From contig CAMXQV010000008.1 in assembly GCA_947245515.1 (NCBI GenBank), positions 1 through 48,693 of the forward strand: a stretch of DNA of 48,693 nt. The letters run 5' to 3'. Every line of letters starts with the position of its first letter. Within the stretch, counting starts at the first letter, position 1. The notes below the pieces were generated by a model. It was not told where the DNA came from, searched no databases, and worked only from the letters and a program-made list of their open reading frames with translations. This document shows positions 27,130 through 40,459 of the stretch, piece after piece. This DNA is from an uncultured Clostridium sp. Lineage in GTDB: Bacteria; Bacillota; Clostridia; TANB77; CAG-508. The translations under genes and the position numbers were made by a program.

Positions 27130-27160
27130 ATTGCCAAAATTCTCCGTCCCTAGTGGCAAT
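27130..27160. repeat. GGGGACGGAG-type motif copy 3, abutting a stop codon
   Basis: attgccaaaattctccgtccctagtggcaat (7-bp terminal inverted repeats ATTGCCA/TGGCAAT). Confidence 0.5.
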
Positions 27161-30100
27161 TATAAAGCATATCTTTTTATTAACATTATTCCTCCACCAA
27201 CTGTTATTAATAGAATAAATAACATTGTAAAGAATATCCTAATTTGCCCTGTACCTATAGATAACATTACTGGTGCATTGTCTATATCATCTTCGCCTTG
27301 TTTCTTATTGTCTGGTGTTGAATCTTTATCTGGTAATCCAAATTTGTTATAATCTTTAGATATTTCTGCTGTATTTACTTTGAGTCCTATATTATTTTCA
27401 CCATTTGTCCAAGTAAGTAACACTTCTATATCAGCGTATTCTCCTGGTTTTAATAATCTGTCTTCTAGTAATTTTGTTGTTATTACATTATTTCCTTCAT
27501 CTTTCCAGCCTGGATTATCTGCTTCTATAAATTTTAATCCTTTTGGGATATGATCTTTTATTTCTTTTGCATAACCTTCAACGTCACCTTCATTTATTAC
27601 TCTAATTGAATATCTAAATTTGACTGTTACTTTGTCTACCTTTTTTCTATGTAATTCTACTTTTACAACTTGTTCTGGATCATCAAAGGGTTGATGTCCT
27701 GTGTTTTTTACATTTTGTTTTCCATCTTCAATTACAATTGCTTGTGTTACCCATTTTCTTAAGGCTAAATCAAAGGTCTTTACTACTAATTTTTCAAAAT
27801 CATCATCATCTTGTTGCCCTGAAATATAACTTCCCTTTTCATTATCTTTATATGTTGGTAAGTCTTTATCTTCTGGTAAGACTACATTATTTATTTGTGA
27901 ATCTCTATCTTTTACATCTTTCTTGTTTTCATCTTTATATTCTGTTATATCCGCTATGTTAGTAATCTTTGTACTTTCTGTTATATCACCTTTTACTTTA
28001 CACATTATTGGTACTTCATTATAATCTAATACTATTTTTCCTTCTTCATTTTTTGTTGCTTTTGTTATTATTTTATCTTCTAAGTATCTTGTTGTAGCCG
28101 TTCTTCCATCTTCTGATAGGTTCCATCCATATTTTTTATTAAAGTCCCCATCTACAAATTCTAAGTATGATGGTAGATGATCTTTTATTTCACTTGCATA
28201 TCCATCTACTTCACCTTCATTGTAAACTCTTAACATATATACTACTATATTGTTTCGTTTTACTAATACTGGTTCTTTTGTATGATTATAGCTTGCTGTT
28301 GTTATAATATCTCCTTTTTCGTCTTTGGTATTTAATTTTGTTGTATCTACTACTGGCTCTCTTTTATATAATCCACTTTCATTTTTTAAATAGTCTTTAT
28401 CATCTATTTTTTTGTCATCACTTACTGCAATAATAAATTTTCTTAAACTTAAATCAAATAATTCTTTTGGTATAATAGGCGTTTCAGGAATTATTAACTT
28501 TTCAAAGTCATCATCATCTTGTTGTCCTGCTATATATTCACCTTTTTCATCATCTTTATAGAATGGTAGTTCTTCATCTTTTGGAAGTTTTACATTATTA
28601 CTTTGAGAATCTCTATCTTTTATGGCTTTTTTGTCTCCATCTTTATATTCTGATATTTCTGCTATATTTGTTATTTTTTCATTTACTTTAGATGTGTCTT
28701 TTACTTTACACATTATTGGTACTTCCTTATAACATAAAGTTATTTTACCATCTTCCTTAATATTTGCCTTATTTATTATACTATCTTCTAAATATCTAGT
28801 TGTAACTGTTCTTCCATCTTCTGATATTTCCCATCCATATTTATTATTGAATTCACCCTTTACAAATTCTAAATATGGTGGTAAATGATCTTTTATTTCA
28901 CTTGCATATCCATCTATACTACCTTCATTATAAACTCTTAACATATATATTACTACATCGTTTTTATTGACTTTTACAGGTTCTTTTGTGTGTTTATATA
29001 TTGCTGTTGTTATTATATTTCCTTTTTCATCTTTTGTATCTAATTTTGATGTATCTACTATTGGTGCTCTTTTATAGGTTCCATCTAACTCTTTTATATA
29101 TTCCTTATCTTCTATTATTTCATCCTCACTTATAGCTATAAGGAATTTTCTTAAGCTTAAGTCAAATACCTTTTCAATTTCAACTGGTCTCTCACGTATA
29201 ATAACTTTTTCAAAATCGTCATCATCTTGTTGTCCAGCTATATATTCACCCTTTTCTTCATCTTTATAGGATGGTAATTTTTCATCCTCTGGAAGTTCTA
29301 CATTATTAATTTGTGAATCTCTATCTGTAATTATCTTTTTGTCCCCATCTCTATATTCTGTTATGTCTGCTATATTTGTTATTTTTTGATTTATTTTTGC
29401 TGTACCTTTTACTTTACACATTATTGGTACTTCTTTATAAGATAGTACTATTTTTCCATCTTCATTTTTTGCAATTTTATTAATTTTATTCTTAGTATCA
29501 TCTAAATATTTTGTTGATACTGTCCTTCCATCCTCTGAAACTTTCCAGTCATACTTATCATTAAAGTCACTTTTTACAAATTCTAAATATGGTGGTAAAT
29601 GATCTTTTATTTCACTTGCATATCCATCTATGTCACCTTCATTATAAACTCTTAACATATATATTACTATGTCATTTTTACTTACTTCTACTGGTTCTTT
29701 TGTATGATTATATATTGCTGTTGTTATTAATCTTCCATATTCATCTTCTGTATTTAATTTCGATGTATCTACTTTTGGTGCTCTTTTATAAGATCCATCA
29801 TTATTTTTTAAGTATTCACTACTTTCTATTGTTTCGTCTTTGCTTACTGCTATAATAAATTTTCTTAAAGCTAAATCAAAGGCTTGTAATATTACCTTAT
29901 CATAATCTTCATCATCTTCATATTTCACCCATTTTTCTGTGTCTGAGTCTCTATCGTCTATTGAATTTCCATTTTCATCTGTGTCCTCTGAAATTTCTGC
30001 TTCATTTCTTATAATTGTACCAGTGATATTATCTGATACTACTTTTAATTTTACTGATATTTCTTTATATGATAAGTCAGCTTCTGTTTTTGTTCCATCA

Positions 30101-32535
30101 TTTCTTCCAAAGGCTTTTATTAGGTTTTCAGTAACAGGAACTCTCATGTCTTCTCCTTCTGATGGTGCTGGCTCTCCTCCATACATATCTAAATAGTTTG
30201 TTGATATTTGAGTAATATTCTCTTTTTTATCATCATATACAAATTTTCCCCATAAGTATTTTTGATTAAATTCAATAGCTGATTTTTCTTCATCAGTAAA
30301 GGTTTTATCTGCTTTTAAGTCTGCTCCTTCTTTTTCTGACCATAGGAATTGTAAGCCCTCTGGTATATCTTCAGTTATTTCTGATGCATATCCATCTATT
30401 GTTCCTTCATTGTATATTCTAAAAGTATATGTAACAATATCTCCTTTTTTTACAGCAACTGGTTCTTTGTTTAGTTTATAATTTGCTGTTGTATTTCCAT
30501 CGATGACATTTAATTTGCTTACATCTACACTTTCTATTCTCTCTGAAATTTTAGTACCATTTACTGCAACAATACGCTTAATTAATTTTAAGTCAAAAGT
30601 TTCTGACATTAGAACTAATTTCTCAAAGTCATCATCATCTTGTTGTCCCTTATAGAAATAATTTGAGTCGTTTAAGGTTTCCTTATTGTCTTTTCCTATA
30701 TAGTCTGACATATTATCTTTATTTACATCTGGTCTTGTACTTGGCTCAGAATCTCTATCTGCTTCTTCTTGGTCTGTTATTTCTACATTTGTTTCACCAT
30801 CTACTTCTTTTGATATCCAAGCAACATTTGTTAATATTGTGTGATTTTTTGAATCTGCTATTGCTTTTACTTCACATTCTATTTCAATTGTTTCTTGACT
30901 TGCACTAGTTTTTGAACTTAAACTTCCTTTAGTATAGGCTTCTAAATTTTTTGTATCTCCATCTTTTCTTACTAATATTAAGGTATTATCTCCACTTTCG
31001 TCATATGACCCTAATTTAAAGTTTCCACTTACAATATTTTTAAATTTTAATCCTGTTGGTAATTGATCAATAATTTCTGTTGCTCTTCCTACTTTTTCTC
31101 CTTCATTATATATTGTAATTTTATATGTAACTTTGTCACCTGTTTTTACTGTTACAGGATCTTTTTTATGCTTATATATTGCTGTTGTTCTATCTTCTAA
31201 AGCTTCTTCTTCAACTTTTGGCTCTCTTGATGCTATTCCTGTTAATTCTACATCATTTATTTTTGTTATATATTTTCTTAAAGCTAAATCAAATTTTCTA
31301 CCTGGTGTAGTTAATTTAACTGGTATTGTTTTTTGCTCTTTTGATGGTATTACTACTGGTTGTGCACTATTATTTTTACTTGATGCACAAATAGTTAATT
31401 CTGTGTTACTATAGCTAATATCTATTCCTATATTTAAATTAGCTATTGTTATGCTTTCTCTTGGAATTGATAAATAAAAATCTTTTCCTATTAATTCTTT
31501 AATTGATTCATCTGTAGGAGACTTATGTTCATCTAACAAAATATATGAAGTAAAATCTGCTTCCCCTTGTTTTACTAAAAATTTAAGTGCATAGGTTATA
31601 CTGTTGTCACTTTCTGTTATATTAATTGGTCCTACAATATAATTTTCACCTTTAGTTTCATAATTTAAGGTTGTCGTATTTACTTTTGCTGGTGCATTTG
31701 AAACTTTAGTAAAGTCATAGTTTTTTGCGTTTTCTTTTGCCTGATTTATTAAATATTTATATAATATTTCTGCTTGGGCTTGTCTTTGATATCCTTCATC
31801 TGTATCACGTATCCTAAAATCACTTAAACTAGTATAGTTTCTACCATCAATTGTATAATTTAGCCAAGCCGTTTTGTCTGTTTTATCATATAAAGGCTCT
31901 CCATAGTTTGTAAAATACCATAAGGCAGATTGTTGCACAGCTTTAACATCATCTTCATTTAGAACCATATCCCATGCTTCACTATTGATTCCTGCTGCTT
32001 GTAATAAGGCATCTTTTTCTTCTGGTGCTGATTTTCCTATAATATAGAAATTATCCAAAATAGCTAAAATAGCATTATATTTACTTATTTTAGTTCCATC
32101 TTCTAACTCTATTTCGCCCTCTACTATTGAGCTTAAAGTTTCATTTTGCTTTCTTATTGCTTCTTTTTCAGTTTTCATGTTATAAAAAATATCATATTCT
32201 TGTCTTTTTTTTGAATCAGAAAAGCCCACTCCAGCCTTTACACAATAAATACTAGCATGTGCTGCGTCTATTGGGGTGTCATCTGTTTCACTAGCATATT
32301 GTACTATATTCCATATTTTTGCTCCCTTAACTGTTGTGTCACTATCATATGGATTTCCTATTCCATATCCAAAGTAGCTTTTTGCCCCTGTTCCAAGATC
32401 TACTTCGTTATTTGACATTAATTCTGTAATTCCTAAATACATGGTTCCTTCTGCATATACTGCACTCTGATAACATGATAATATGCAAAAAATAATTATA
32501 CTTATTGCTATTATTAAAGTTCTTTTTAGCTTCAT
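27160..32535 (-). CDS. Giant modular surface protein A: signal peptide, thioester-domain-like N-terminus, about 6 Ig/isopeptide-like modules, C-terminal TM
   Basis: IYCVKAGVGF and VQQSALWYFTN resemble the Cys and (T)QxAxW motifs of thioester domains; FDLxLRK start and TNxAxI end in each module; TM tail ...IKRYAL. Confidence 0.8.
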   Translation of the reverse strand: MKLKRTLIIAISIIIFCILSCYQSAVYAEGTMYLGITELMSNNEVDLGTGAKSYFGYGIGNPYDSDTTVKGAKIWNIVQYASETDDTPIDAAHASIYCVKAGVGFSDSKKRQEYDIFYNMKTEKEAIRKQNETLSSIVEGEIELEDGTKISKYNAILAILDNFYIIGKSAPEEKDALLQAAGINSEAWDMVLNEDDVKAVQQSALWYFTNYGEPLYDKTDKTAWLNYTIDGRNYTSLSDFRIRDTDEGYQRQAQAEILYKYLINQAKENAKNYDFTKVSNAPAKVNTTTLNYETKGENYIVGPINITESDNSITYALKFLVKQGEADFTSYILLDEHKSPTDESIKELIGKDFYLSIPRESITIANLNIGIDISYSNTELTICASSKNNSAQPVVIPSKEQKTIPVKLTTPGRKFDLALRKYITKINDVELTGIASREPKVEEEALEDRTTAIYKHKKDPVTVKTGDKVTYKITIYNEGEKVGRATEIIDQLPTGLKFKNIVSGNFKLGSYDESGDNTLILVRKDGDTKNLEAYTKGSLSSKTSASQETIEIECEVKAIADSKNHTILTNVAWISKEVDGETNVEITDQEEADRDSEPSTRPDVNKDNMSDYIGKDNKETLNDSNYFYKGQQDDDDFEKLVLMSETFDLKLIKRIVAVNGTKISERIESVDVSKLNVIDGNTTANYKLNKEPVAVKKGDIVTYTFRIYNEGTIDGYASEITEDIPEGLQFLWSEKEGADLKADKTFTDEEKSAIEFNQKYLWGKFVYDDKKENITQISTNYLDMYGGEPAPSEGEDMRVPVTENLIKAFGRNDGTKTEADLSYKEISVKLKVVSDNITGTIIRNEAEISEDTDENGNSIDDRDSDTEKWVKYEDDEDYDKVILQAFDLALRKFIIAVSKDETIESSEYLKNNDGSYKRAPKVDTSKLNTEDEYGRLITTAIYNHTKEPVEVSKNDIVIYMLRVYNEGDIDGYASEIKDHLPPYLEFVKSDFNDKYDWKVSEDGRTVSTKYLDDTKNKINKIAKNEDGKIVLSYKEVPIMCKVKGTAKINQKITNIADITEYRDGDKKIITDRDSQINNVELPEDEKLPSYKDEEKGEYIAGQQDDDDFEKVIIRERPVEIEKVFDLSLRKFLIAISEDEIIEDKEYIKELDGTYKRAPIVDTSKLDTKDEKGNIITTAIYKHTKEPVKVNKNDVVIYMLRVYNEGSIDGYASEIKDHLPPYLEFVKGEFNNKYGWEISEDGRTVTTRYLEDSIINKANIKEDGKITLCYKEVPIMCKVKDTSKVNEKITNIAEISEYKDGDKKAIKDRDSQSNNVKLPKDEELPFYKDDEKGEYIAGQQDDDDFEKLIIPETPIIPKELFDLSLRKFIIAVSDDKKIDDKDYLKNESGLYKREPVVDTTKLNTKDEKGDIITTASYNHTKEPVLVKRNNIVVYMLRVYNEGEVDGYASEIKDHLPSYLEFVDGDFNKKYGWNLSEDGRTATTRYLEDKIITKATKNEEGKIVLDYNEVPIMCKVKGDITESTKITNIADITEYKDENKKDVKDRDSQINNVVLPEDKDLPTYKDNEKGSYISGQQDDDDFEKLVVKTFDLALRKWVTQAIVIEDGKQNVKNTGHQPFDDPEQVVKVELHRKKVDKVTVKFRYSIRVINEGDVEGYAKEIKDHIPKGLKFIEADNPGWKDEGNNVITTKLLEDRLLKPGEYADIEVLLTWTNGENNIGLKVNTAEISKDYNKFGLPDKDSTPDNKKQGEDDIDNAPVMLSIGTGQIRIFFTMLFILLITVGGGIMLIKRYAL

Positions 32536-32579
32536 TTTTTTCTCCTTTTCATCTCTTATCAATAATATCTCTATATATA

Positions 32580-32607
32580 ATTTTACAATATTTTTTTATT
32601 AAGTCAA
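32580..32607 (-). promoter_or_regulatory. Promoter of surface protein A, TTGACT-N16-TAAAAT
   Basis: minus strand ttgact taataaaaaaatattg taaaat. Confidence 0.6.
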
Positions 32608-32657
32608 TATTGCTTTTTTTATACTTTTTTTGTATTTTTTTTTGCCTCTTTTCCTTC

Positions 32658-32717
32658 TACGGAAATGCTTTTTTGTATTGTTTGCATAAAAAGTTGCCCA
32701 TATTACAATTATATTAC
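32658..32717 (-). promoter_or_regulatory. Putative operator array: GTAATA-N5-GTAATA-N35-TTTCCGTA upstream of gene A
   Basis: same elements and spacings occur upstream of gene B (39029-39088). Confidence 0.5.
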
Positions 32718-32892
32718 ATTTTTGTAATATAATCAATATATTACTGCTTTAACTTTATTAATTCCAATTTTCCGCTAAAACTTAATCCTTTTTATTATAA
32801 AATGGTATAAATTTATGAAATACATTTGTATAAAAATTAAAAGAAGAAAACTTTAAAAGTCCTCTTCTTAAAATAATATTAAATTTTGTAAT

Positions 32893-35800
32893 TTATATTA
32901 CATATCTTTTTATTAATGTTACTCCTCCTGCTACTGTAATTAGAACTATAAAACCTATTGTAAAATAAATTCTAACTTGACCTGTACTAACAGATAACAT
33001 TACTGGTGCATCATCTATATCATCTTCTCCTGGCTTTTTATTATCTGGTGTAGAATCTTTGTCTGGTATTCCATATTTATTGTAATCTTTAGATATTTCT
33101 GCTGTATTTACTTTTAGTCCAATATTTTCTTCGCTATTTATCCAAGTAAGAAGTACTTCAACATCAGCAAATTCTCCTGGTTTTAACAATTTATTTTCAA
33201 GTAATTTAGTAGTTATTATATTATTACCTTCATTTTTCCAGCCTGGATTATCTGATGCTACAAATTTTAATCCCTTTGGAATATAATCTTTTACTTCTTT
33301 TGCATAGCCTTCAATTTCGCCTTCATTTGTTACCCTTATAGAATATCTAAATTTTACTGTTACATTATTTAATTTCTTTCTATGTAATTCTACTTTTACA
33401 ATTTGTTCAGGGTCATCATATGGCTTATGTCCAGTATTATTAATTGTTTGTTTGCCATCTTCAATAACTATTGCTTGTGTTACCCATTTTCTTAGACTTA
33501 AATCAAATATCTTTTCTGGTTCTTCTGGGATTATTATTTTTTCAAAGTCATCATCATCTTGTTGTCCTGGGATATAATCTCCCTTTTCTTCATTTTTATA
33601 AGATGGTAAATCTTTATCCTCTGGAAGTTTAACATTATTACTTTCTGAGTCTCTATCATTAACTATATTTTTATCTTCATCTCTATATTCTGTTATATCT
33701 GCTATATTTGTTATTCTTTCATTTGTTTTTGCTATATCTTTTACTTTACACATTATTGGTACTTCTTTATAATCAAGTTCTATTTTTCCTTCCACATTTG
33801 TTGTTGCTTTCTCTATAATTTTGTCTTGTAAGTACCTTGTTGTTACTGTTCTTCCATCTTCTGATACTTCCCAGCCATATTTTGTGTTAAATTCTCCTTT
33901 AACAAATTCTAAATATGGTGGTAGATGGTCTTTTATCTCACTTGCATATCCATCTATTTCTCCTTCGTTATATGCTCTTAGCATATATACTACTATGTCA
34001 TTTTTCTTTACAACTAGTGGCTCTTTTGTGTGTTTATATATTGCTGTTGTTATTTTATTTCCTTCTTCATCTTCTGTATTTAATTTTGAGGTATCTACTA
34101 TTGGTGCTCTTTTATAGGTTCCATCTTCATTTTTTAAGTATTCTTTATCTTCTATTGTTGTGTCTTCACTTGTTGCTATTATGAACTTTCTTAAACTTAA
34201 GTCAAATTCCTTCTCTGGCTCTGGTTCTTCAGGTATTATTACTTTTTCAAAATCGTCATCATCTTGTTGTCCTGGGATATAACTTCCCTTTTCGTCATCT
34301 TTATATGCTGGTAAGTCTTCATCTTTTGGTAAGCTTACATTATTACTTTGTGAATCTCTGTCTGTTGCTATATTTTTGTCTTCGTCTCTATATTCTGTTA
34401 TGTCTGCTATATTTGTTATTTTTGTGTTTTCTTTTGCTATTTCTTTTACCTTACACATTATTGGTACTTCTTTGTAGTCTAGCTCTATTTTTCCTTCTGT
34501 ATTTGTTGTTGCTTTCTCTATAATTTTGTCTTGTAAGTATCTTGTTGTTACTGTTCTTCCATCTTCTGATACTTCCCAGCCATATTTTGTGTTAAATTCT
34601 CCTTTAACAAATTCTAAATATGGTGGTAGATGGTCTTTTATCTCACTTGCATATCCATCTATTTCTCCTTCGTTATATGCTCTTAGCATATATACTACTA
34701 TGTCATTTTTCTTTACAACTAGTGGCTCTTTTGTGTGTTTATATATTGCTGTTGTTATTTTATTTCCTTCTTCATCTTCTGTATTTAATTTTGAGGTATC
34801 TACTATTGGTGCTCTTTTATAGGTTCCATCTTCATTTTTTAAGTATTCTTTATCTTCTATTGTTGTGTCTTCACTTGTTGCTATTATGAACTTTCTTAAA
34901 CTTAAGTCAAATTCCTTCTCTGGCTCTGGTTCTTCAGGTATTATTACTTTTTCAAAATCGTCATCATCTTGTTGTCCTGGGATATAACTTCCCTTTTCGT
35001 CATCTTTATATGCTGGTAAGTCTTCATCTTTTGGTAAGCTTACATTATTACTTTGTGAATCTCTGTCTGTTGCTATATTTTTGTCTTCGTCTCTATATTC
35101 TGTTATGTCTGCTATATTTGTTATTTTTGTGTTTTCTTTTGCTATTTCTTTTACCTTACACATTATTGGTACTTCTTTGTAGTCTAGCTCTATTTTTCCT
35201 TCTGTATTTGTTGTTGCTTTCTCTATAATTTTGTCTTGTAAGTATCTTGTTGTTACTGTTCTTCCATCTTCTGATACTTCCCAGCCATATTTTGTGTTAA
35301 ATTCTCCTTTAACAAATTCTAAATATGGTGGTAGATGGTCTTTTATCTCACTTGCATATCCATCTATTTCTCCTTCGTTGTATACTCTTAGCATATATAC
35401 TACTATGTCATTTCTTTTTACTACTAATGGTTCTTTTGTATGCTCATATACTGCTGTTGTTATTTTATTTCCTTCTTTATCTTCTGTATTTAATTTTGAG
35501 GTATCTACCTTTGGTGCTCTTTTATAGGTTCCATCTTCATTTTTCAAGTATTCTCTATCTTCTATTGTTGTATCTTCACTTGATGCTATTATGAATTTTC
35601 TTAAACTTAAGTCAAATTCCTTCTCTGGCTCTGGTTCTTCAGGTATTATTACTTTTTCAAAATCGTCATCATCTTGTTGTCCTGGGATATAACTTCCCTT
35701 TTCGTCATCTTTATATGCTGGTAAGTCTTCATCTTTTGGTAAGCTTACATTATTACTTTGTGAATCTCTGTCTGTTGCTATATTTTTGTCTTCGTCTCTA

Positions 35801-38800
35801 TATTCTGTTATGTCTGCTATATTTGTTATTTTTGTGTTTTCTTTTGCTATTTCTTTTACCTTACACATTATTGGTACTTCTTTGTAGTCTAGCTCTATTT
35901 TTCCTTCTGTATTTGTTGTTGCTTTCTCTATAATTTTGTCTTGTAAGTATCTTGTTGTTACTGTTCTTCCATCTTCTGATACTTCCCAGCCATATTTTGT
36001 GTTAAATTCTCCTTTAACAAATTCTAAATATGGTGGTAGATGGTCTTTTATCTCACTTGCATATCCATCTATTTCTCCTTCGTTATATGCTCTTAGCATA
36101 TATACTACTATGTCATTTTTCTTTACAACTAGTGGCTCTTTTGTGTGTTTATATATTGCTGTTGTTATTTTATTTCCTTCTTCATCTTCTGTATTTAATT
36201 TTGAGGTATCTACTATTGGTGCTCTTTTATAGGTTCCATCTTCATTTTTTAAGTATTCTTTATCTTCTATTGTTGTGTCTTCACTTGTTGCTATTATGAA
36301 CTTTCTTAAACTTAAGTCAAATTCCTTCTCTGGCTCTGGTTCTTCAGGTATTATTACTTTTTCAAAATCGTCATCATCTTGTTGTCCTGGGATATAACTT
36401 CCCTTTTCGTCATCTTTATATGCTGGTAAGTCTTCATCTTTTGGTAAGCTTACATTATTACTTTGTGAATCTCTGTCTGTTGCTATATTTTTGTCTTCGT
36501 CTCTATATTCTGTTATGTCTGCTATATTTGTTATTTTTGTGTTTTCTTTTGCTATTTCTTTTACCTTACACATTATTGGTACTTCTTTGTAGTCTAGCTC
36601 TATTTTTCCTTCTGTATTTGTTGTTGCTTTCTCTATAATTTTGTCTTGTAAGTATCTTGTTGTTACTGTTCTTCCATCTTCTGATACTTCCCAGCCATAT
36701 TTTGTGTTAAATTCTCCTTTAACAAATTCTAAATATGGTGGTAGATGGTCTTTTATCTCACTTGCATATCCATCTATTTCTCCTTCGTTGTATACTCTTA
36801 GCATATATACTACTATGTCATTTCTTTTTACTACTAATGGTTCTTTTGTATGCTCATATACTGCTGTTGTTATTTTATTTCCTTCTTTATCTTCTGTATT
36901 TAATTTTGAGGTATCTACCTTTGGTGCTCTTTTATAGGTTCCATCTTCATTTTTCAAGTATTCTCTATCTTCTATTGTTGTATCTTCACTTGATGCTATT
37001 ATGAATTTTCTTAGACTTAAATCAAATCCCCTTTTTGGTAAAATTAATTTTTCAAAATCATCATCATCTTGTTGACCTTTATAGTAATATTCGGAATCGT
37101 TTAAGTTTTCTTTATTTCCACTTCCTGTATAATCTGACATATTATCTTTATTTACTTCAGGAATTGTACTTGGTTCAGAGTCTCTATCTGCTTTTACTTG
37201 GTTTGTAATTATTATATTACTTTCACTATCTACTTCTTCATCTATCCAAGCAACATTTGTTAAGATCTGATTTTTTTCTATGCTTACAACTGCTATCACT
37301 TCACATTCAATTTCTATAGTTTCAGAATTTGAACTTAAATGTCCACTACTATAAGCACTTAAGTTACTAGTATTTCCATCTTTTCTAACTAAAGTTAGTC
37401 TATTATCACTTTCATTATATGATCCTAGTTTAAAATTTCCACTTACAATATTTTTGAATTTTACCCCTGTTGGTAATTGATCAATAATTCTTGTAGCTCT
37501 TCCCTCTTTTTCACCTTCATTATATATTGTTATTTTATATGTAACTATATTTCCTGTTTTTACAGGTACAGGTTCTTTTTTATGTTTATATATTGCTGTT
37601 GTTTCACTTGCTAGAGTTCCTTCATCTATTACTGGTACTCTTGAATTAACACCTGTAAGTTCTACACCATTAATTTTGGTTATATATTTTCTCAAAGATA
37701 AATCGAAATTTTTAGTTGGTGTTTTTAATTTATAAGGTATTGAAACTGATCCTTTAGTTGGTTTTACTAAAGGTTGTGCAGAATTATTTTTGCTTGATCC
37801 ATATAAAGTTAAGTTGGTATCACTGTAATTTATATTAATTTCTAAATTTAGGTCAGCTATTGTTACACTACTTTTAGGAATTGATATATAAAAATTGCTT
37901 CCAACTAAATCCTTTACTGTACTTGTTGTAGGTCTTTCATTTTGATCTAATAAACTATATGTTGTAATTGTTTTTGTACCATCTTTTACAAGAAAATCAA
38001 TTGTGTATGGAACTTTATTTGTTCCTTCACTGATATTTATTGGTCCTACTATATAATTTTCACCACTAGCTTTATAATTTAAAGAAGTTGTATTTACTGT
38101 TGCTGGTGCGTTTCCTCCTGTTGAGGTTTCATATTTAGGTGCATTTTCTACTGCTGTTTCTATCAAGTATTGATATAATAATTCAGCTTGTATTTGTCTT
38201 TGTTGTCCTTCACGTGTTTCTAAATTATAATCACTTAAACTAGTATAATTTCTTCCATCTGTTGTATAATTTAACCACCCTGATTTTCCTATTTTATTAA
38301 ATAAACTCTCTTCATAATTTGTAAAATACCACAAAGCAGATTGTTCAACTGCTTTAATATCATCATCGTTTAATATAACATCCCATTCATCTGTCCAATC
38401 TGGCATGTGTATAATGTTTGCTGCACGTAATAGAGCTTCTTTTTCTTTAGCTTCTGATTCGCCTGGTATATAAAAAATATCAAATATAGCCAAAATAGCA
38501 TTATATACCTTTACTGTTTTACCATTATAAGTTACTGTTCCATCTACAATTGATTTTAATATATCGTTTTGATTCCTTATTTGCTCTTTTTCTGTTTTAA
38601 AATTAAAAGCTAAATCATAATCTTCCCCTTTTTTTGTGTCAGAAAATCCTACTCCAGCTTTTACACAAAAAATAGTAGATGGCACTATATGTGACCCGCT
38701 ATCATATTCAACTATATTCCAAATTTTTGCTCCTTTTGCTTTTGTATCACTATCATATGGGTTCCCGATTGCGTATCCCATACCACTTGACATTAATTCA

Positions 38801-38910
38801 GTAACTGAAAAATGTATTATGCTGTCAGCATAAACTATATTTTTAAAACAACTTAGTATGAAAAATATAATTATGCTAATAACTATTATTGGTTTAATCT
38901 TAACTCGCAT
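32893..38910 (-). CDS. Giant modular surface protein B (paralogue of A): thioester-like N-terminus, 7 modules (5 of them 235-aa tandem repeats), C-terminal TM
   Basis: IFCVKAGVGF, VEQSALWYFTNY, FDLSLRKF modules, QQDDDDFEK linkers, tail IKRYVI; RBS aaaggagagg. Confidence 0.85.
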   Translation of the reverse strand: MRVKIKPIIVISIIIFFILSCFKNIVYADSIIHFSVTELMSSGMGYAIGNPYDSDTKAKGAKIWNIVEYDSGSHIVPSTIFCVKAGVGFSDTKKGEDYDLAFNFKTEKEQIRNQNDILKSIVDGTVTYNGKTVKVYNAILAIFDIFYIPGESEAKEKEALLRAANIIHMPDWTDEWDVILNDDDIKAVEQSALWYFTNYEESLFNKIGKSGWLNYTTDGRNYTSLSDYNLETREGQQRQIQAELLYQYLIETAVENAPKYETSTGGNAPATVNTTSLNYKASGENYIVGPINISEGTNKVPYTIDFLVKDGTKTITTYSLLDQNERPTTSTVKDLVGSNFYISIPKSSVTIADLNLEININYSDTNLTLYGSSKNNSAQPLVKPTKGSVSIPYKLKTPTKNFDLSLRKYITKINGVELTGVNSRVPVIDEGTLASETTAIYKHKKEPVPVKTGNIVTYKITIYNEGEKEGRATRIIDQLPTGVKFKNIVSGNFKLGSYNESDNRLTLVRKDGNTSNLSAYSSGHLSSNSETIEIECEVIAVVSIEKNQILTNVAWIDEEVDSESNIIITNQVKADRDSEPSTIPEVNKDNMSDYTGSGNKENLNDSEYYYKGQQDDDDFEKLILPKRGFDLSLRKFIIASSEDTTIEDREYLKNEDGTYKRAPKVDTSKLNTEDKEGNKITTAVYEHTKEPLVVKRNDIVVYMLRVYNEGEIDGYASEIKDHLPPYLEFVKGEFNTKYGWEVSEDGRTVTTRYLQDKIIEKATTNTEGKIELDYKEVPIMCKVKEIAKENTKITNIADITEYRDEDKNIATDRDSQSNNVSLPKDEDLPAYKDDEKGSYIPGQQDDDDFEKVIIPEEPEPEKEFDLSLRKFIIATSEDTTIEDKEYLKNEDGTYKRAPIVDTSKLNTEDEEGNKITTAIYKHTKEPLVVKKNDIVVYMLRAYNEGEIDGYASEIKDHLPPYLEFVKGEFNTKYGWEVSEDGRTVTTRYLQDKIIEKATTNTEGKIELDYKEVPIMCKVKEIAKENTKITNIADITEYRDEDKNIATDRDSQSNNVSLPKDEDLPAYKDDEKGSYIPGQQDDDDFEKVIIPEEPEPEKEFDLSLRKFIIASSEDTTIEDREYLKNEDGTYKRAPKVDTSKLNTEDKEGNKITTAVYEHTKEPLVVKRNDIVVYMLRVYNEGEIDGYASEIKDHLPPYLEFVKGEFNTKYGWEVSEDGRTVTTRYLQDKIIEKATTNTEGKIELDYKEVPIMCKVKEIAKENTKITNIADITEYRDEDKNIATDRDSQSNNVSLPKDEDLPAYKDDEKGSYIPGQQDDDDFEKVIIPEEPEPEKEFDLSLRKFIIATSEDTTIEDKEYLKNEDGTYKRAPIVDTSKLNTEDEEGNKITTAIYKHTKEPLVVKKNDIVVYMLRAYNEGEIDGYASEIKDHLPPYLEFVKGEFNTKYGWEVSEDGRTVTTRYLQDKIIEKATTNTEGKIELDYKEVPIMCKVKEIAKENTKITNIADITEYRDEDKNIATDRDSQSNNVSLPKDEDLPAYKDDEKGSYIPGQQDDDDFEKVIIPEEPEPEKEFDLSLRKFIIATSEDTTIEDKEYLKNEDGTYKRAPIVDTSKLNTEDEEGNKITTAIYKHTKEPLVVKKNDIVVYMLRAYNEGEIDGYASEIKDHLPPYLEFVKGEFNTKYGWEVSEDGRTVTTRYLQDKIIEKATTNVEGKIELDYKEVPIMCKVKDIAKTNERITNIADITEYRDEDKNIVNDRDSESNNVKLPEDKDLPSYKNEEKGDYIPGQQDDDDFEKIIIPEEPEKIFDLSLRKWVTQAIVIEDGKQTINNTGHKPYDDPEQIVKVELHRKKLNNVTVKFRYSIRVTNEGEIEGYAKEVKDYIPKGLKFVASDNPGWKNEGNNIITTKLLENKLLKPGEFADVEVLLTWINSEENIGLKVNTAEISKDYNKYGIPDKDSTPDNKKPGEDDIDDAPVMLSVSTGQVRIYFTIGFIVLITVAGGVTLIKRYVI
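33500..37030 (-). repeat. Five 705-bp tandem repeats inside gene B
   Basis: shadow ORFs recur at 33821, 34526, 35231, 35936, 36641 (exactly 705 bp apart); two unit types in gene order II-I-II-I-I. Confidence 0.95.
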
Positions 38911-39202: not shown

Positions 39203-40459
39203 GTGATTTTAGTGAAAAATATATTAAAACTATTATTTATTATTATTTTTATTTTTTCCTTTCTATTTTATAATATAACTGTTTTTGCAGACGATTTGAA
39301 TTTTGAAAATGAACTTGAGACTTCTTCTTTTCAAACTGAACATTCTAGTACAAAAGAAAACCTTAAATTAAATTCTCGTTCTTGTATTGTTTTAGATCGA
39401 ACTAGTAAAAAAATCCTTTATGGTAAAAATGAATTTAATAAAGTAAAAATGGCTTCAACTACTAAAATAATGACTGCAATAGTTGTTATTGAGATGGATG
39501 ATTTAAATAAAACAATTGAAGTTTCTAAAAAAGCTGCTAATACTGGGGGATCAAGATTAGGTTTAAGAACTGGAGATAAAATTACTATTCATGACTTATT
39601 ATATGGATTAATGTTATGTTCTGGAAATGATGCAGCAGTAGCACTTGCAGAGTGTACAGCAGGAAGTATACCTGAATTTTCTAATCTTATGAACGATAAG
39701 GCTACAGAACTTGGATTATTAAATAGCCATTTTGAATCTCCTCATGGATTAGATTCTGACAATCATTATACTACTGCCTATGAGTTAGCAAAATTATCTG
39801 ATTATGCTTTGAAAAATAAAACTTTTTTACAATTAGTTGGTACTAAAAATTATACTGTAACAATTAATGGTAATCCTAAAAATTTATCTAATACAAATGA
39901 GTTACTTGGAAATTTAAATGGTGTATATGGTATAAAAACTGGTTTTACAAATGGTGCGAATCGTTGTCTGGTTACATCTTGTAAAAGAGGTAATATGGAT
40001 ATTATTTCTGTTGTTTTAGGTGCAGATACTAAAAATTTTAGAACTCAAGATAGTGTTAAACTTATTGAATATGCTTTTAGTAATTTTGATTATGTTGATA
40101 TAAAAGATATTGTTAATTCTAAATTTGAAGAATGGAAATCACAGAATATTGAAACTTTTTCTATTAATAAAAAAAGCTTTAATTGTAATCTTGATATTGG
40201 TTTTTCAGATTTAAATAATTCTATTTTTCCAATAAGAAAAGATGAAAAAGATAATATTCAATTTACTATAAATGTTAATAGAGATTTTATTGCTCCTATT
40301 AATAAAGGAACTGTTATTGGAAATATAGATGTTTATACTGATTCTACTGATTTGATTAGTCTACCTATATATATATCAGACGATATTGATAAAAACACTG
40401 TTTTTGATTATTTTTACTATTTTATAAAAAACTTTAATACCATTTGCTCTTTTAGATAA
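39203..40459 (+). CDS. D-alanyl-D-alanine carboxypeptidase (PBP5/DacF-like)
   Basis: MASTTKIMTAIVVIE (SxxK), CSGNDAAVALAE (SxN), GIKTGFTNGANRC (KTG); GTG start at 39203 or 39212. Confidence 0.93.
   Translation: MILVKNILKLLFIIIFIFSFLFYNITVFADDLNFENELETSSFQTEHSSTKENLKLNSRSCIVLDRTSKKILYGKNEFNKVKMASTTKIMTAIVVIEMDDLNKTIEVSKKAANTGGSRLGLRTGDKITIHDLLYGLMLCSGNDAAVALAECTAGSIPEFSNLMNDKATELGLLNSHFESPHGLDSDNHYTTAYELAKLSDYALKNKTFLQLVGTKNYTVTINGNPKNLSNTNELLGNLNGVYGIKTGFTNGANRCLVTSCKRGNMDIISVVLGADTKNFRTQDSVKLIEYAFSNFDYVDIKDIVNSKFEEWKSQNIETFSINKKSFNCNLDIGFSDLNNSIFPIRKDEKDNIQFTINVNRDFIAPINKGTVIGNIDVYTDSTDLISLPIYISDDIDKNTVFDYFYYFIKNFNTICSFR

Follow-up and report, generated by a model that had tools for sequence, protein, structure and literature searches.

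P1 and P2, two adjoining giant surface proteins of an uncultured Clostridium sp., are likely adhesins of the covalent type. "The window" here means the whole stretch of 48,693 nucleotides that was analysed. Domain make-up, residue conservation, fold match, tail pattern and a fixed locus were established by computation, and our proposal, which we consider as a whole to be probable, is that they are sortase-type fibrillar adhesins of the thioester-isopeptide (TIE) kind. A signal peptide would direct both to secretion, and a class II-like tip would hold a thioester within the chain, between Cys107 and Gln401 in P1 and between Cys82 and Gln379 in P2. Attack on this thioester by an amine of the target surface, such as that of a lysine, would then leave the target covalently linked to the Gln. 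A stiff stalk would be built of six or seven DUF11 (CLIPPER) modules, each with a Lys-Asn isopeptide bond, and the tail, (S/T/A)(I/V)xTG followed by a TM helix and KK/KR(F/Y), would be a proline-free sorting signal read by a sortase of the genome, most plausibly the family-wide core sortase. We infer the thioester and isopeptide chemistry, the sortase processing and the identity of the sortase.

The two genes

A preliminary description of this DNA had reported two neighbouring ORFs, each product with a hydrophobic N-terminus, a Cys-bearing region (YCVKAGVGF or FCVKAGVGF), the motif VQQSALWYFTN or VEQSALWYFTN, a lone C-terminal hydrophobic segment and a tail of LSIGTG...KRYAL (P1) or LSVSTG...KRYVI (P2); all of these are present, in ORFs of the minus strand (Table 1). 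The six modules of P1 and seven of P2 were also counted correctly, and they begin with FDLxLRK as described, except for module 2 of P1, which begins with FDLKLIK. Both proteins share one domain order: signal peptide, thioester domain (TED), DUF11 modules and a single C-terminal TM helix.

Translation of P1 probably begins with codon 10, an ATG (window 32535) preceded by a good AGGAG site, and not with the TTG from which Table 1 counts. In the 330-bp gap between P2 and P1, a terminator-like inverted repeat 3' of P2 and a promoter-like TTGACT...TAAAAT 5' of P1, resembling the TTGACA...TAAAAT 5' of P2, were picked out by eye, so the two genes may be transcribed apart from each other.

Table 1. 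Features of the P1/P2 region, with positions in the window
Feature	Position	Strand	Basis
P1, thioester-domain surface protein	27160..32562	-	ORF, 1800 codons counted from TTG
P1 tail, LSIGTG + TM helix + KRYAL	27163..27264	-	Tail alignment
P1 stalk, six DUF11/CLIPPER modules with Lys/Asp/Asn triads	27277..31293	-	PF01345 matches
P1 Gln401, predicted thioester Gln, xQP[LVI] motif	31360..31362	-	Invariant, 86/86; hairpin turn in model
P1 beta-rich insert making the domain class II	31408..31710 (approximate limits)	-	Bimodal spacing; missing in short forms
P1 class II-like TED, about aa 38-420	31303..32451	-	PF08341, 21.8 bits; AF2 pLDDT 92; 6FWV/6FWY
P1 Gln211, Gln of helical TQxxPhiW-like motif	31930..31932	-	86/86; in model helix 174-189
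P1 Cys107, predicted thioester Cys in [YF]C motif	32242..32244	-	Invariant, 86/86
P2, thioester-domain surface protein	32893..38910	-	ORF, 2005 aa
P2 tail, LSVSTG + TM helix + KRYVI	32896..32997	-	Tail alignment
P2 modules 2-6, five near-identical 705-nt repeats	33508..37026	-	Sequence comparison
P2 class II-like TED, about aa 30-400	37711..38823	-	PF08341, 18.0 bits; long spacing
P2 Gln379, predicted thioester Gln	37774..37776	-	Alignment
P2 Cys82, predicted thioester Cys	38665..38667	-	Alignment
dacA-like D-Ala-D-Ala carboxypeptidase, divergent neighbour	39203..40459	+	Named by sequence resemblance only

Locus and distribution

The dacA-like gene is divergent from, and adjoins, the TED gene in 70/70 loci that show a dacA-like gene, with a median gap of about 262 bp and plsX usually on the far side. 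This order of dacA, TED and plsX is fixed in most relatives (window 23464-46098; loci L087-L163), and further on lie genes named EF-Tu- and EF-G-like, in the window by resemblance. Adhesins of the P1/P2 type are part of the core genome and are vertically kept. More than one TED gene is found in 28 of 78 loci.

Relatives occur in 33 of the 57 sampled genomes, these being 33 of the 35 from the same genus, and in 307 of the 388 genomes from the order, almost all belonging to one family (36/48 genera). Given so wide an occurrence, the architecture of P1 and P2 is not due to chance. The source genomes of these relatives are MAGs, and the names of several refer to gut samples (rabbit, chicken), which makes gut surfaces, mucus or other microbes possible targets.

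Two side observations can be recorded here. At four loci (L062, L063, L069, L086) a frameshift or stop interrupts the adhesin gene, either within the stalk or downstream of the TED; assembly errors, decay or on/off switching may lie behind this. A short-form TED gene also sits beside a dacA-like gene in G090 (L216), a genome belonging to a different family of the order; gene transfer or a mis-binned contig would explain it.

The stalk modules

PF01345 (DUF11) matches six times in P1 and seven times in P2. Now named CLIPPER, the family was shown to form Lys-Asn isopeptide bonds by means of a catalytic Asp (PMC12617251). Lys, Asp and Asn stand at the expected sites in 13/13 modules (the Asp of P1 module 2, in TEDIPEGL, was located by eye), and isopeptide bonds are predicted from this triad. 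Modules 2+3 and 4+5 of P2 are copies of a 1410-nt unit that differ at 2 positions in 1410 nt; with repeats this close, the module number of P2 in the present assembly may be wrong or collapsed. Other Pfam matches in P2, such as AIRS_C (2e-11), TRI4_N and T7-like gp12, were rejected as weak chance matches multiplied by the near-identical repeats, since no stretch passes singly.

The C-terminal tail and its anchoring

Neither protein contains the LPXTG pentapeptide, in place of which stands S(I/V)xTG, and neither matches the LPXTG or Gram_pos_anchor families. Their layout is nevertheless LPXTG-like: xxxTG, a hydrophobic stretch and a basic end, in a genome that encodes sortases. All 72 complete tails from the genus read (L/I/V)(S/A/T/G)(I/V/L)xTG, a TM helix and K(K/R)(F/Y)(V/I)(L/I) or nearly so. 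In a non-redundant set (n=25, under 80% identity) the T is kept in 24 tails and the G in 25, and no motif position varies more than the x ahead of T (2.87 bits). Where LPXTG has its proline, these 25 tails have I (11), V (8), P (2), T (2), G (1) or L (1). Sister genera have TPRTG and TPQTG, with Pro at the I/V position, and tails found on other giant proteins of the window genome include LSIRTG, ISIGTG, VSIKTG (where the reading frame continues) and TPSTG. We also considered the TG as a mere helix cap, which we rejected on account of the highly variable x between I/V and T and of the Pro at the I/V position in sister genera.

Seven sortases are encoded in the window genome, some of them adjoined by ordinary LPXTG-type proteins, and across the genus sortases are present in 40/40 genomes, at 4-15 per genome. 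The C30 sortase has near full-length orthologues in 39/40 genomes and in 29/29 genera of the family; the similar C46 sortase is almost equally widespread. Judged by distribution alone, the C30 sortase is the best candidate for reading the tails of P1 and P2.

The preliminary description had left anchoring as two options, a variant sorting motif or plain membrane anchoring. The conservation of the tail favours the first: with T and G near invariant, x the most variable position and Pro in sister genera, sortase anchoring is the better reading, and on balance the (S/T/A)(I/V)xTG tail would be a clade-wide sorting signal, as judged from the aligned sequences. The second option, that the same adhesins are held in the membrane by their TM helix and the xTG goes uncut by sortases, we consider unlikely while giving it real weight. 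In its favour are the lack of a family match, the absence of a dedicated sortase gene adjoining TED genes in all 117 loci and a report that C. difficile SrtB leaves NVQTG uncleaved (PMC5569036). Our literature search for proline-free sorting motifs in Clostridia, which was incomplete in coverage, returned no precedent and no motif without Pro reported as cleaved. However, a plain TM anchor requires no TG, and here T and G are almost invariant, at the spacing of a sortase motif, with the x ahead of them free to vary; the Pro of the sister genera falls at the right position, the basic tail is short, and the matching tail recurs on the further giant proteins.

Other proteins in the window genome

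Several other proteins in the window genome (G000) deserve mention. On contig C2, a 4516-aa ORF (L049:3156-16703) ends in LSIRTG-TM-IKKYVL, a tail of the same type as in P1 and P2, and another ORF (L169) has an internal VSIKTG-TM-IKKKK followed by further in-frame protein; two genes may be fused there, or a stop may be missing. Contig C3 carries a second TED gene, broken into two frames of 181 and 688 aa (L170:3550-7547), which adjoins its own sortase and a TraG/VirD4-like gene and recalls the pLS20 TED adhesin; from its gene content the region looks like a conjugative element. Contig C26 encodes a canonical TED protein by a sortase (L171:2788-4236), with LPVTGM, then stop codons and no TM helix after.

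The tip domain

That P1 and P2 carry a thioester adhesin tip on a long stalk, as the preliminary description had proposed, is supported by a TED profile match at or just below threshold, a fold match to TED crystal structures and an invariant Cys. At the protein level PF08341 scores 21.8 bits for P1 and 18.0 bits for P2 against a cut-off of 22; in the genome search P1 reached 22 bits and was listed above the cut-off.

The P1 tip (aa ~30-436) was modelled with AF2 (pLDDT 92, pTM 0.87); in model numbering Cys107, Gln211 and Gln401 are Cys78, Gln182 and Gln372. Foldseek against the PDB gave four matches at E<=1e-3, all of them class II TEDs (6FWV at E 1e-9; 6FWY). TM-scores against 6FWV and 6FWY are low (0.27-0.38), with high rmsd and poor global superposition, so the fold match is a local one; in the model, the subdomains are probably set at other angles than in these structures. 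Although the TM-scores are low, the model does have a TED fold with a beta-sandwich insert between alpha3 and strand P.

Likeness of the tip to solved TEDs is visible at fold level only. The 86-sequence alignment, run as a profile against PDB sequences, returned no match, and a profile comparison with the canonical TED of contig C26 gave nothing useful.

Which glutamine would bond the cysteine?

In known TEDs the Gln that forms the bond is that of a PhiQzPhiPhi motif, located on beta-strand Q; the Gln of the helical TQxxPhiW motif hydrogen-bonds the Cys backbone and is dispensable for the bond (PMC4450167, PMC6194298). The (Q/E)QSALW of P1 and P2 is the counterpart of TQxxPhiW. We aligned 86 relatives, made up of the window proteins and loci from a scan of GTDB contigs. 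Cys107, in a [YFL]C motif, Gln211 and Gln401 are invariant in 86/86, and Gln210 is replaced by Glu in three, P2 among them. The region ahead of Gln401 is poorly conserved, yet its Gln-Pro is invariant. An earlier same-genus set (n=45) had Cys107 in 45/45, Gln211 in 44/45 and Gln401 in 44/44, and one otherwise intact relative (L083) has Lys at Gln211. In the P1 model a long C-terminal beta-hairpin (strands 347-364 and 374-389, model numbering) turns at Gln401; this hairpin matches the strands P and Q expected of a class II TED.

Taken together, the published strand-Q position, the 86/86 conservation and the place in the hairpin make Cys107-Gln401 in P1 and Cys82-Gln379 in P2 the likely thioester pairs, as predictions from alignment and model. 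It is improbable that the fold is TED-like but has no thioester and binds non-covalently: sequence similarity to tested TEDs is indeed weak, but the Cys and Gln401 are among the strictest-kept residues of a fast-evolving tip. The version in the preliminary description, a bond from Cys107 to Gln211 of (Q/E)QSALW, can draw on the conservation of this Gln in the named-locus set and on the short distance that separates its equivalent from the Cys when known TED folds are inspected (PMC6194298), but is very improbable when the bond Gln of solved TEDs is on strand Q and the helical one non-essential, L083 does with Lys instead, and Gln401 is both invariant and suitably placed. It should be noted that asking whether the Cys lies beside the QSALW Gln probes the wrong residue, since that Gln touches the Cys backbone in known TEDs without bonding.

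Long and short forms in one family

Measured between the last residue of the third helix (Ala275) and Gln401, the spacing is bimodal: 27-33 residues in 41 sequences, 117-135 in 45 and nothing intermediate, with P1 and P2 both of the long form. A short form modelled alone (L095:14095-14958; pLDDT 85.6) matches class I TEDs, namely 4C0Z (E 5e-5) and, at weaker E-values, 5A0N and 5A0D. Judged by these models, one orthologous family holds both known TED classes, set apart by a single insert of ~100 aa. Mixed forms are not novel as such, since a survey of fibrillar adhesins already described TED clusters with mixed class features (PMC9210967).

A tree of the heads has two changes between long and short, one of them due to a long-branched row, against a shuffled mean of 28.9. 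Relatives in other genera of the family almost all read with the long spacing (the exception, G090, is a short form from a different family), which favours loss over gain of the insert in this genus. In several genomes the long gene has a short one after it (L090, L094, L095, L096, L101, L105, L106, L119, L136, L140).

A wider reading, which we offer tentatively as a possibility that falls a little short of an even chance, is that the whole family anchors giant thioester adhesins through proline-free (S/T/A)(I/V)xTG, a motif that the family's own sortases would recognise, and that the TED classes have been interconverted by gain or loss (probably loss) of one ~100-aa beta insert, which would leave many genomes with a tandem pair, one gene of each class. 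Between known class I and class II TEDs identity is about 12-21%, whereas both are found here on the same head at about 45-60%, sometimes adjacent in a single genome, so that close relatives can be compared for what the insert and its slipknot do. Tails with a proline-free xTG span many genera, with Pro-bearing intermediates, and if read by sortases they would widen the known range of sortase substrates; motif scans that require LPXTG overlook proteins of this type.

Comparison with known systems

The closest structures are the class II TEDs BaTIE (6FWV) and EfmTIE86 (6FWY), the sole significant fold matches (E<=1e-3) of the P1 long form. Like P1 and P2, they have an N-terminal tip, a Cys in [YFL]C, a helical Q-x-x-Phi-W and a beta-sandwich insert ahead of the Gln hairpin. 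Identity is about 8-10%, the insert is about 100 aa here as against about 75, and P1 and P2 have a DUF11 stalk in place of CnaB domains, and no LPXTG. The class I TEDs Cpa (4C0Z), PnTIE (5A0N) and CpTIE (5A0D) are fold matches of the short relatives, P1 and P2 both being long; unlike these class I TEDs, the short relatives have the same head as class II-like long members within their own family.

Every stalk module has the family match and Lys/Asp/Asn triad in common with DUF11/CLIPPER (PF01345, PDB 9IFR), at a length of 204-239 aa against a 114-position PF01345 model. For the tail, the (S/P)PxTG substrates of C. difficile SrtB are clostridial variant motifs that also end in TG; those that are cleaved retain the Pro, whereas the P1/P2 motif is without it, like the uncleaved NVQTG. 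Finally, TIE-pLS20 (p34) of Bacillus subtilis is, like P1 and P2, a class II TED adhesin without LPXTG. It has a role in conjugation and no C-terminal sorting signal, whereas P1 and P2 carry xTG in a TM-bearing tail and are encoded at a core locus of the chromosome.
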